This document shows positions 23,341-30,278 of a DNA stretch of 60,992 nucleotides, piece by piece. The translations under genes were made by a program, and so were the position numbers. Every line of letters starts with the position of its first letter. Within the stretch, counting starts at the first letter, position 1. This DNA comes from Gammaproteobacteria bacterium (GTDB taxonomy: Bacteria > Pseudomonadota > Gammaproteobacteria > GCA-001735895). The notes under the pieces were generated by a model. That model was not told where the DNA came from. It saw only the letters and a list, made by a program, of their open reading frames with translations, and made no database searches. The stretch is taken from the NCBI GenBank assembly GCA_030066085.1, contig JASJCI010000041.1:1-60992 (forward strand). Reading direction: 5' to 3'.

Positions 23341-23685
23341 ATGCCGCGAATCAAGGAAATCAGCGTCGCCGACCTGCATCGCATGTTGCGCAACCCCGAC
23401 CATTTCGAGCTGCTCGATATCCGCACGCCCGCGGAGATCGAGCGCGGAGTGCTGCCCAACGCCCTGACGCTGCCGATGCACCTGGTCCCGCTGCACCTGA
23501 ACTTTTTTTCCGAATCACCCCGCCAGGTGGTGATTTACTGCCGTACCGGCAGCCGCTCCGCCCAGGTCTGCCGGTTCCTCAACCAGCAGGGTCTCAACAA
23601 CGTCATCAGCCTGCGTGGCGGGGTGGTCAGGTGGGCCCAGGGCGGGCATGCGCTGGATCCACGTCCCAAGGGTTCGGTGAACTGA
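23341..23685 (+). CDS. Rhodanese-like sulfurtransferase
   Basis: 114 residues, one rhodanese domain with LLDIRTPAEIERGVLP and the active loop YCRTGSRSAQ (Cys at about 68). The six-residue loop CRTGSR fits thiosulfate/sulfane-sulfur-handling rhodaneses. It is followed by tusA 108 bp downstream and is divergent from bepA. With soxYZ and tusA nearby it probably belongs to a cytoplasmic sulfur-relay set (inference). Confidence 0.88.
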   Translation: MPRIKEISVADLHRMLRNPDHFELLDIRTPAEIERGVLPNALTLPMHLVPLHLNFFSESPRQVVIYCRTGSRSAQVCRFLNQQGLNNVISLRGGVVRWAQGGHALDPRPKGSVN

Positions 23686-26512: not shown

Positions 26513-27556
<1,044 letters not shown>

Positions 27557-27563
27557 TCCGGAC

Positions 27564-27625
27564 GGCGGGCGCCCCGCGCCCGCCCTGCTCTGCTGTCCAC
27601 CGGTGCAATACTGTTATTGCACCGG
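27564..27625 (+). terminator. Two tandem hairpins downstream of ilvC
   Basis: The first is a perfect 9-bp stem at 27564-27584 (GGCGGGCGC/GCGCCCGCC, loop CCC). The second is a perfect 11-bp stem at 27600-27625 (CCGGTGCAATA/TATTGCACCGG, 4-nt loop). Neither is followed by a T-run, so they may act as mRNA 3'-end stabilisers or factor-dependent stops rather than simple terminators. Confidence 0.5.
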
Positions 27626-27697
27626 CCGGTCCCGGGCCTTACGATAGCTAACCGAAGGCCATTGCTCGGGATACCGTTAAAATACAGGCTAATCGAG

Positions 27698-28495
27698 ATG
27701 GACGACAGCAACCCGAAAGAAACGCGCAAGCGAATGCCCAGGGGCATCTACCTGTTGCCCAACCTGTTCACCACGGGCGCACTGTTTGCCGGCTTCTACG
27801 CGGTTATCGCGGCGATCAACGGACTGTTCGAAACTGCCGCGATCGCAATCTTCCTTGCCGGTCTGCTCGACGGCCTCGATGGCCGGGTCGCACGCCTGAC
27901 CAATACCCAGTCCGCCTTCGGCGCCGAGTTCGACAGCCTGTCCGACATGGTATCGTTCGGCGTCGCGCCCGCCCTGATTGTCTATCTCTGGTCGCTGGTC
28001 TACCTCAAGGAAGTCTCCATCGCCATGGGCAAGCTCGGCTGGCTCGCGGCATTTATCTATGCCACCGCGACCGCGCTGCGCCTGGCGCGTTTCAATACCC
28101 AGATCGGAACCGCCGACAAGCGTTATTTCCAGGGACTGGCGAGCCCGGCCGCGGCCGCCGTCGTCATGGGCGCGGTCTGGCTTTGCGAGAGTTACGAAAT
28201 CGCCGGCCAGGACGTGACCTACGCCGCGCTGGTGCTGACGATTGCCGCCGGCGGCCTGATGATTTCGCGCTTTTCCTACTACAGTTTCAAGGATCTGGAC
28301 CTGCGCGAGCGCGTGCCTTTCGTCGCGATGGTCGCGGTGGTGCTCGTATTTGTCTTCCTGTCGATCGAAACCGCCACCGTGCTGTTCAGCTTTTTCTTCC
28401 TTTACATGCTGTCCGGTCCGCTGGTGTCGCTATTTCGCTGGAACCGCAAGCGCATGCGCCTCGCCGATTCGGGCCAGCGGGATACCGATAACTAG
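27698..28495 (+). CDS. pssA: CDP-diacylglycerol-serine O-phosphatidyltransferase
   Basis: 265 residues from the ATG at 27698. The CDP-alcohol phosphotransferase signature is complete (DGLDGRVARL..AFGAEFDSLSD). MPRGIYLLPNLFTTGALFAGFYAV at the start and several membrane helices through to the basic tail match the integral-membrane, subclass II PssA. It makes phosphatidylserine, the precursor of phosphatidylethanolamine. The placement between ilvC and leuA is a common arrangement in several gammaproteobacteria (from memory). Confidence 0.93.
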   Translation: MDDSNPKETRKRMPRGIYLLPNLFTTGALFAGFYAVIAAINGLFETAAIAIFLAGLLDGLDGRVARLTNTQSAFGAEFDSLSDMVSFGVAPALIVYLWSLVYLKEVSIAMGKLGWLAAFIYATATALRLARFNTQIGTADKRYFQGLASPAAAAVVMGAVWLCESYEIAGQDVTYAALVLTIAAGGLMISRFSYYSFKDLDLRERVPFVAMVAVVLVFVFLSIETATVLFSFFFLYMLSGPLVSLFRWNRKRMRLADSGQRDTDN

Positions 28496-28512
28496 GCTCC
28501 GCTTATTTTCAC

Positions 28513-28541
28513 TTGGCAAGCCATCGAGAGTTGGCTATATT
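28513..28541 (+). promoter_or_regulatory. Sigma-70-like promoter for the leuA leader
   Basis: TTGGCA at 28513-28518 and TATATT at 28536-28541 with the optimal 17-bp spacing. A start site 6-8 nt past the -10 box falls at about 28548, the A of the leader peptide's ATG. Confidence 0.65.
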
Positions 28542-28547
28542 TGCCTA

Positions 28548-28652
28548 ATGCACAAAGCGTACGCCATTTCCAAATTCCAGCTGCTGGCCAGCCCGCAGCT
28601 CCTGCCCGCGTACCTGCTGCTGTCTCTGCTGCTCGTTCTGCTGCTGCCGTAA
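28548..28652 (+). CDS. leuL: Leucine-rich leader peptide upstream of leuA
   Basis: 34 codons from ATG to TAA, ending 78 bp before leuA. Thirteen residues are leucine, mostly in runs near the C-terminal end (YLLLSLLLVLLLP). Such peptides sense leucyl-tRNA supply by ribosome stalling and attenuate leu biosynthetic genes in enteric bacteria (known principle). No Shine-Dalgarno is visible before the ATG, and the promoter predicts transcription starting at the ATG itself, so the peptide may be translated from a leaderless mRNA. A 5-bp stem with a GTAA loop spans the stop codon. The classical terminator with a T-run is not evident, so the exact control mechanism is open. Confidence 0.7.
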   Translation: MHKAYAISKFQLLASPQLLPAYLLLSLLLVLLLP

Positions 28653-28657
28653 GGCAG
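28644..28657 (+). promoter_or_regulatory. Small GNRA-loop hairpin at the leader peptide stop
   Basis: CTGCC pairs with GGCAG around a GTAA tetraloop; the leader's TAA stop lies within it. A ribosome stalled in the leucine codons would keep it open or closed depending on position. No T-run follows. Confidence 0.4.
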
Positions 28658-28730
28658 ACTAGAGAACTCCTGACGAGGGTAAACGTAAGCAACACACCAA
28701 TTCCCAAACGTTCCGGCAAACGAGATAGCC

Positions 28731-30278
28731 ATGAATAAAGACAAGTTAATCATTTTCGACACCACGCTTCGCGATGGTGAACAAAGCCCCGGCGCTTCGA
28801 TGACGCGCGAAGAAAAGATTCGCATTGCGCGTGCGCTCGAACTGATGAAGGTCGACATCATCGAGGCCGGCTTCCCGATCGCGAGCGAGGGCGACTTCGA
28901 ATCGGTCCGCGCGGTCGCCGAAATCATCAAGGACAGCACGGTCTGCGGACTTGCTCGTGCCAAGCCGGCCGACATCGATCGCGCTGGCGAGGCTATCAGG
29001 CCTGCCAACTCGGGTCGCGTGCACACCTTCCTCGCCACCTCGCCGATTCACATGGAGCACAAGCTGCGCATGACCCCGGACCAGGTCGTCGAGGCCGCGG
29101 TCGCGGCGGTCAAACAGGCCCGCCAGTACACCGACGATGTCGAGTTTTCTCCCGAGGACGCGGGCCGCTCGGAGCCTGATTTCCTGTGCCGGGTGATCGA
29201 GGCGGTAATCGATGCGGGCGCCAGCACGATCAACATTCCCGACACGGTCGGATATAACGTTCCACACCAGTTCGGGAGCCTGATTCGCGACCTGATCGAG
29301 CGCGTGCCCAACTCCGACAGGGCCGTGTTCTCGGTGCACTGCCACAATGACCTCGGCCTCGCGGTTGGCAACTCGCTGGCGGCGGTACTCAACGGCGCAC
29401 GCCAGGTCGAGTGCACGATCAACGGCCTTGGCGAGCGCGCCGGTAACGCATCGCTGGAGGAAATCGTGATGGCGGTGCGTACGCGCCAGGATATTTTCGC
29501 TTGCGATACCGATCTCGATACCACGCAGATCATGAACTGTTCGCGCATGGTGTCCGGCATTACCGGTTTCAACGTGCAGCCGAACAAGGCCATTGTCGGC
29601 GCCAACGCCTTTGCGCACGAATCGGGCATCCACCAGGACGGCGTGCTCAAGTCGCGCGAGACCTACGAAATCATGCGCGCCCAGGACGTTGGCTGGACCA
29701 CCAACAAGCTGGTGCTCGGCAAACATTCCGGGCGCAATGCCTTCAAGACGCACATGTCGGAGCTCAACGTTCACTTCGAATCGGAAGAAGAGCTGAACGA
29801 GGTTTTCTCGCGCTTCAAGGCGCTGGCGGACAAGAAACACGATATCTACGACGAAGATCTGCTCGCGCTGGTCAACGAGGCCGCGTTCGAAACCGAGAAC
29901 GAAACCATCAAGCTCGTCAGCCTGCGCGTATGCTGCGAAACCGGCGAAACCCCGGTTGCCAGCATGACGCTGAATATCGAGGGTGAAGAACAGCAGGCCG
30001 AGTCCAGCGGCGATGGCCCGGTTGACGCCTGCTTCAAGGCGATCGAAAAACTGACCGAGACCGGTGTCGAGCTGCAGCTCTACTCGGTCAACGCGATTAC
30101 CACCGGCACCGATTCGCAGGGTGAGGTCACGGTGCGGGTGGAGAAGGACGGCCACGTGATCAACGGCCAGGGTGCCGATACCGATATCGTGATTGCGTCG
30201 GCCAAGTCCTATATCAACGCGCTCAACAAGGTGATCAACCGCACGGGCCGCACGCACCCGCAGCTGGGGGACGTGTAA
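28731..30278 (+). CDS. leuA: 2-isopropylmalate synthase
   Basis: 515 residues, the normal length for LeuA type 1. The N-terminal TIM barrel has [16 protein letters not shown], with the metal ligand Asp, and the metal-binding [27 protein letters not shown], the [11 protein letters not shown] linker and a C-terminal allosteric domain (from about residue 390) follow. It condenses acetyl-CoA with 2-oxoisovalerate in the first committed step of leucine synthesis and is inhibited by leucine. It is preceded by a leucine-rich leader peptide, which suggests control by leucyl-tRNA supply. Confidence 0.96.

Follow-up and report, generated by a model that had tools for sequence, protein, structure and literature searches.

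The region upstream of leuA in the window (the whole 60,992-nucleotide stretch of DNA that was analysed, one contig of a 4.39-Mb draft genome) probably encodes a leucine-responsive, ribosome-mediated translational attenuator, whose leader lacks a Shine-Dalgarno (SD) sequence and is, here, leaderless. The evidence for this is computational throughout. In the proposed mechanism, a sigma70-type promoter would start the transcript on, or a base or two from, the ATG of a Leu-rich leader, which would be translated without a ribosome-binding site. With ample leucine, the ribosome would reach the leader stop codon and free the Leu run behind it, which could then pair with the leuA SD. This helix would close a compact fold around P2, the hairpin at the stop codon, and the pseudoknot of P3, with poor translation of leuA as the result. 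If leucyl-tRNA is scarce, the ribosome would stall in the Leu run and cover this strand, and the leuA ribosome-binding site would open. The promoter-to-ATG spacing, the leader ORF, P2, P3, the pseudoknot and the co-evolution of the Leu run with the SD are supported by sequence comparison; what is inferred is where transcription actually starts, that the leader is translated, in which direction it responds and what effect this has on leuA.

Table 1. Features of the leuA leader region, in window coordinates.
Feature	Position	Strand	Basis
-35 box TTGGCA	28513..28518	+	sigma70-type promoter scan
-10 box TATATT, 17-bp spacer	28536..28541	+	sigma70-type promoter scan
Transcription start (predicted), at the leader ATG or at most 2 nt from it	28546..28549	+	inferred from -10-to-ATG spacing
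Leader ORF, 34 codons, 13 Leu, C-terminus Leu-Leu-Leu-Pro-stop	28548..28652	+	ORF/translation, relatives
P1, tentative hairpin within the leader ORF (AGCUGC/GCAGCU)	28579..28600	+	arm co-variation
Putative sequestering helix, 5' arm, in the Leu run (GCUGUCUC)	28619..28626	+	consensus fold, co-evolution
P2, hairpin CUGCC-GUAA-GGCAG, leader stop codon across the loop	28644..28657	+	consensus fold, covariation
P3, hairpin (U)CCU-GACG-AGG(G)	28668..28679	+	consensus fold, covariation
P3 loop bases ACG, proposed pseudoknot helix, 5' side	28673..28675	+	pairing counts, 92 elements
CGU, proposed pseudoknot helix, 3' side	28684..28686	+	pairing counts, 92 elements
leuA SD region GAGAUAGC, putative sequestering helix, 3' arm	28722..28729	+	consensus fold, co-evolution, folding
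leuA, 2-isopropylmalate synthase, 515 aa, named from sequence	28731..30278	+	translation

A preliminary description of this DNA had pointed to a frame of 34 codons with 13 leucines that ends 78 bp before leuA, and to a near-ideal promoter with a 17-bp spacer. Both were confirmed. The frame (28548-28652) starts with the ATG at 28548 and ends with the TAA at 28650-28652, 78 bp before the leuA ATG at 28731, and encodes the peptide MHKAYAISKFQLLASPQLLPAYLLLSLLLVLLLP. TTGGCA-17-TATATT is the sole sigma70-like site in 27000-30000 (0.6 expected from shuffles), and its score is reached by 2 of 121,912 window positions on both strands, itself included; this scoring used a simple weight table, and the scan was limited to the window. 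The stretch 28513-28657 spans the -35 box through the end of the stop-codon hairpin, and the gene order read from translations is ilvB-ilvN-ilvC-pssA-leader-leuA. The leader ATG is the only ATG in the window that has a promoter of at least 10 bits at 6-8 nt. The spacing is that expected of a leaderless transcript, in which the -10 box lies 6-8 nt ahead of the start codon and leaves no room for an SD. With a gap of 6 nt between the -10 box and the ATG, transcription that begins 7 nt past the -10 box would take the A of the ATG as its first base, and the transcript would contain no ribosome-binding site. Folded as a single sequence, 28548-28740 shows no exceptional stability (z -1.31; matched by 21 of 200 shuffles), which means that the case for the element rests on comparison.

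The absence of a visible classical terminator, also claimed at the outset, held up, since the window scan found no terminator-like site (stem plus U run) between the leader and leuA. In enteric bacteria, leuL/leuA is a transcription attenuator with a Leu-rich leader. The window likewise carries a Leu-rich leader upstream of leuA, as enteric and Shewanella loci do, and a leuL-type transcription attenuator whose terminator and antiterminator were missed by the scan has to be considered. In the accessible part of the source, a classical attenuator with both structures is predicted for Shewanella leuA (PMC2659441); none was found in the window. Even under loose criteria, terminator-like sites occur in just 14 of 97 elements, in differing places and several of them inside the Leu run, and we regard this explanation as very improbable. 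Rfam offers no match in its support: at the gathering score, Rfam 15 returned no family across the window and no match in 20 element loci, the window's own included. Within 28400-28850, allowing E values up to 10, three matches were found, the best at 0.63 on the other strand, which is chance level. With no Rfam 15 match, P2, P3 and the pseudoknot provide a ready covariance model for annotation.

Such a model, R1, was built on P2 and P3, the 3' part of the element. At E<=0.01, it matches 115 of the 369 genomes examined from the class, and at E<1e-5 it still matches 71. Outside the window's family, all 68 matches at E<1e-5 lie just upstream of leuA, as assigned by a LeuA N-terminal motif within 450 nt; three matches in the window's family were excluded. 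This association falls to 6/7 for matches between 1e-5 and 1e-4 and to 6/12 between 1e-4 and 1e-3, so that the weaker matches are partly due to chance. A second match within the window (23502-23561, - strand, E 0.006) is weak and probably a chance hit. An exact pattern of the stop hairpin and P3 was found in 25 of 41 genomes of the family, once per genome, and its reversed form gave no match in the same 41 genomes. Slightly loosened, the pattern occurs in 45 stretches of named genomes, 44 of which lie directly upstream of leuA as judged by the LeuA motif. In the one stretch that lacks the motif (L066, JAJPJH010000108.1), the leader ends ...FIIRLILP and the next ORF starts MPLGGGVYIGEG.

Closer to the window, 28 leuA loci of the same family were inspected by eye. 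The preliminary description would have taken a loss of the leucine run in close relatives as a refutation, and such loss is indeed seen in a minority of the loci: promoter, leader and stop hairpin are retained in 21 loci, the leader is degraded behind a retained promoter in two (L015 and L017), the element is absent from four (L018, L019, L023 and L024), and one (L016), for which the leuA start was mis-set, was left unjudged. L015 and L017 come from genomes of the window's genus; with a promoter but, it seems, no intact leader any more, they would represent natural 'broken switch' cases. Judged by sequence comparison, the element is conserved well beyond the window's genus.

For the comparative tests, 117 elements were reduced to 98 distinct ones by dropping three without upstream DNA (L087, L089 and L135) and 16 that were more than 93% alike. 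Removal of one element without a P2 anchor left 97, and removal of 28 that were more than 72% alike left 69. Elements before leuA genes with the motif MRDGEQ are absent from the 98 and were included only in the pseudoknot count. The leuA start of L052 was mis-set (GTG) wherever this locus was used, except in the consensus fold. The presence of P2 and P3 is built into the pattern and the model by which elements were selected, unlike the promoter spacing, the greater part of the Leu run and the SD pairing; R1 does include bases around the downstream partner of the pseudoknot.

The promoter spacing provides evidence for a leaderless start. The best sigma70 promoter of each of the 98 distinct elements was picked irrespective of where start codons are. 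Counted from this promoter, the first in-frame ATG is 6, 7 and 8 nt past the -10 box in 22, 22 and 8 elements, respectively (52/98), at 9-12 nt in 12/98 and farther away in 32/98, and is absent in 2/98. In the two other frames, none of the 98 elements has an ATG at 6-8 nt. Within the window's family, 18 of 19 distinct elements have the short spacing, compared with 34 of 79 outside it. This supports, by computation only, the leaderless start without a ribosome-binding site that had been suggested for the window. Among the 32 elements in which the ATG is more than 12 nt away, just two carry an SD-like word 3-15 nt before it. In all 24 sequences of the family, the first ATG in any frame after the last TATATT is in frame with the leader stop. 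On these counts, which involve no mapped 5' end, most elements seem to have a leader that lacks an SD, and about half of all elements seem to have a leaderless one. Since it recurs across the class, the arrangement of promoter and ATG is, by this comparison, beyond chance.

As for the boxes of the chosen promoters, the -10 element reads TATATT in 49/98 and TATAGT in 31/98, and the commonest -35 element is TTGGCA (48/98). The textbook consensus TTGACA is avoided, with only 3/98. The common TTGGCA may hint at a regulator or at a tuned promoter strength.

In Gammaproteobacteria, leaderless mRNAs are generally regarded as uncommon and as inefficiently translated. The view that a leaderless attenuator would be an unusual sensor may hold for this class. 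It does not hold for bacteria at large, as far as can be told from the accessible parts of two reports. LeuL1 of Streptomyces lividans is reported to be transcribed leaderless and without a typical Rho-independent terminator (PMC8079986), in both of which it resembles the leader predicted in the window. In Sinorhizobium meliloti, the 5' end of the attenuator RNA rnTrpL coincides with the ATG of the trpL leader ORF (PMC7298713). This leader is leaderless too, but it is a Trp leader that acts by transcription attenuation, unlike the Leu leader described here, for which no terminator was found. In the element described here, leaderless initiation seems to be a regular component of an amino-acid sensor across many lineages, and this offers a natural case in which to test what purpose such initiation serves.

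The interpretation of the frame as an attenuator peptide is equally supported by computation alone. The 59 leaders with an ATG 5-10 nt past the -10 box are 18-41 aa long and contain no internal stop. Their median Leu content is 25%, with a mean of 5.2 Leu among the last 10 residues, and Leu occupies 358 of the 708 positions in the last 12. By eye, many leaders of the class (e.g. L163, L186 and L190) end Leu-Arg-Leu(-Leu)-Pro, with CGA amid the Leu codons. CGA is a rare Arg codon, and its position between Leu codons may add to the stall. The terminal Pro raised the possibility of a Pro-stop nascent-chain arrest, of which TnaC is an example. This idea was rejected: by eye, some members carry one to four residues past the Pro, and in at least one (L191) this Pro is missing. 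The stop hairpin thus seems more constant than the Pro-stop.

In a covariance analysis of relatives, as the preliminary description had proposed, P2 and P3 covary, and the Leu run co-evolves with the leuA SD. In 79 distinct sequences, 96.2% of the cells in P2 and P3 are paired, against 90.4% in shuffles, and the covariation score is 0.163 against 0.067, with none of 500 shuffles as high. Of the five measures, one gave no excess: further pair types in P2 and P3 numbered 12, against 11.6 in shuffles. The alignment used was fitted to the model. The arms of P2 co-vary class-wide. P3 has the consensus CCU-GRCG-AGG, and its outer pair is C-G in 24 elements, A-U in 12, G-C in 12, U-G in 9, G-U in 2 and U-A in 1, and unpaired in 17.

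The P3 loop G-R-C-G opposes the first downstream C-G-N. In 92 elements, the loop purine and the third base of this partner form A/U in 16, G/C in 64, G/U in 12 and A/C in none; the third base is never A or G, and there is no mismatch. The association between the two has a Fisher value of 1e-10, uncorrected for descent, and in our reading a loop with R=A arose in at least four groups. A linker of 5 nt is found in 57 of the 92 elements, and half of the linker is A. By inference from these pairings, the P3 loop and the downstream CGN would form a small H-type pseudoknot. A conserved P3 core and pseudoknot amount to more sequence conservation than a plain hairpin needs, which is what would be expected if the fold were a binding site for a protein or a ligand, with the leader peptide secondary. 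Such a binding fold has been proposed for the actinobacterial LEU element, according to the part of that report that is accessible (PMC1262725). Part of the P3 conservation is, however, owed to the search pattern and the model. The core is missing from 16 of 108 elements, of which, by eye, three are close variants and 11 have another hairpin in its place. Moreover, the leader frame, its Leu content and the promoter spacing recur class-wide. All of this renders a binding site improbable as an alternative to the leucine-responsive attenuator.

Support for the hairpin within the leader ORF, P1, is only moderate, and it was not upheld as a firm element. Its arms co-vary in the family with p 0.013 at one of 5 tested positions and class-wide with p 0.004-0.005 at two adjacent positions of 8 tested, and individual P1 hairpins are mostly no stabler than shuffles.

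The pairing between the Leu run and the leuA SD is central to the proposed translational control. In the RNAalifold consensus of 24 family sequences, its pairing probability is 0.99 (GCUGUCUC with GAGAUAGC in the window). Within the genus, the helix scarcely varies, and its support from sequence consists of conservation plus one G-U change. Several broader tests were of limited use. A first duplex test with 44 elements had no discriminating power, as a strong SD will pair with any Leu run. A raw matrix test of duplex energies gave a residual of -1.57, with 72 of 97 elements below zero, but three of four control region pairs were significant too, a composition effect, and raw energies were rejected as evidence. 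In a per-element shuffle test with 69 elements, the SD gave a t of -5.5 and the control pairing of the Leu run with leuA codons 3-8 a t of -3.3; the z value is below zero in 53/69 elements and below -1.5 in just nine. The pairing is weak in many elements. As controls were also significant in the raw and shuffle tests, we relied on two others.

In the first, shuffled SDs served as the yardstick and non-cognate partners as the baseline, for 69 elements less than 72% alike. The Leu run paired with its cognate SD at z -0.62 and with non-cognate SDs at -0.21. The cognate residual is -0.404 (permutation sd 0.095), with none of 5000 permutations as low; three control region pairs gave p values of 0.75, 0.068 and 0.069. 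As the elements share descent, these p values are not exact. In the second test, the peptide of each of the 69 leaders was kept fixed and synonymous codons were resampled. Natural codons pair more strongly with their own SD than synonymous variants do (mean z -0.49, t -4.6), and show no such preference for foreign SDs (z 0.05); the cognate value is the lower one in 47/69 elements. On this comparative evidence, the choice of leader codons seems to be tuned to the leuA SD. The earlier suggestion of a different mechanism thereby gains support, again from computation only: it is the leuA SD with which the Leu run pairs instead.

This co-evolution, synonymous codons included, is left unexplained if the leader acts through transcription attenuation without an intrinsic terminator. 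Here, release of the ribosome at the leader stop would expose the spacer between leader and leuA to Rho, a stalled ribosome or an alternative fold would prevent this, and P1 and P2 would act by pausing RNA polymerase, which keeps it in step with the ribosome. The window does lack a terminator, the leader carries Leu codons, the stop-codon hairpin covaries and the possible hairpin P1 precedes the Leu run, much as classical pause hairpins lie within the ORF ahead of the regulatory codon run. We consider Rho-dependent control unlikely, though the most plausible of the three alternatives.

Folding with an assumed ribosome footprint predicts how the translational switch might operate. In the window, opening the leuA SD would cost 4.8 kcal/mol in the free RNA and 5.3 with a ribosome at the leader stop, but only 0.2-0.9 kcal/mol with the A-site at -33 to -9, in the Leu run. 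A ribosome stalled earlier, with the A-site at -51/-48 on the first Leu pair, would leave the SD largely closed (4.8 and 4.1). Averaged over 69 elements, the cost is 6.1 for free RNA, 4.5 for a stall at -24 and 5.75 at the stop; it drops by more than 0.5 in 46/69 elements at -24, yet also in 25/69 at the stop. Nine family members average 4.5 free, 2.5 stalled and 3.4 at the stop. The modelling thus predicts a clear switch in the window and a weaker, modest one on average across the 69 elements. In translational attenuators of the macrolide type, such as ermC, a ribosome stalled in the leader ORF likewise frees the SD of the next gene. There, the stall is induced by a drug and the leader has its own SD, whereas here it would be caused by amino-acid starvation and the leader has none. 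We suggest, by inference, that this lack follows from the Leu run itself: being similar to an anti-SD, the run would silence any leader equipped with its own SD.

A similar design is known from Actinobacteria. In the accessible part of the report, the actinobacterial LEU element comprises a Leu-rich leader before leuA, a base stem between Leu codons and the leuA SD, and an internal pseudoknot; leader mutations of S. coelicolor leuA are reported there to be inconsistent with classical attenuation, which counts against our reading (Seliverstov et al. 2005, PMC1262725). As far as this portion of the source allows a comparison, the element described here shares the Leu-codon leader directly upstream of leuA and, computationally, the base stem. 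The pseudoknot is supported here by pairing counts, and a correspondence of its helices with the actinobacterial one is not established. By eye, the Leu runs of the Nonomuraea and Microbacterium leaders MLRGLLLSCRGGGL and MQFGLLLLSCRDESSD are complementary to the leuA SD region. A hairpin with the stop codon in its loop, such as P2, was not spotted in the actinobacterial test loci, and the gammaproteobacterial leaders are mostly longer (18-41 aa in the 59). The LeuA proteins differ as well. The window's LeuA is 63% identical over 97% to a Neisseria protein and scores 3.4e-39 against leuA_yeast (TIGR00970), which we take to be the model of the other LeuA type, yet stays below the cut-off of this model. 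R1 gave no match up to E 10 in three test loci, two of them actinobacterial (the regions upstream of Nonomuraea and Microbacterium leuA). The element thus appears to follow a LEU-like logic, but fails, at the sequence level, the test of a shared family.

Whether the element represents an undescribed RNA family found throughout the Gammaproteobacteria is, in our estimate, evenly balanced. In this broader proposal, the leader, often a leaderless one, has to do without an SD, since its own Leu run serves as the anti-SD by which leuA is closed, and the LEU logic of Actinobacteria was invented independently, with a stop-codon hairpin and pseudoknot of its own. A literature search of open-licence coverage, mostly at title level, did not turn up a comparable element described from Gammaproteobacteria. 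If the attenuator works as proposed, it would suggest a mode of leuA control in gammaproteobacterial lineages without an enteric-type attenuator, and a single solution shared by two phyla, in which Leu codons double as an anti-SD.

In a draw of 398 genomes across the phylum, R1 matched five at E<=1e-4, and three of these five came from beyond the class. In our reading, two of the matches beyond the class precede a leuA of the other type. In one genome from another class of the phylum (G475, locus L210, 1501-1713), two stop-hairpin elements stand in tandem before a single leuA, and one of the two copies carries a compensated stop hairpin, CUACC/GGUAG.
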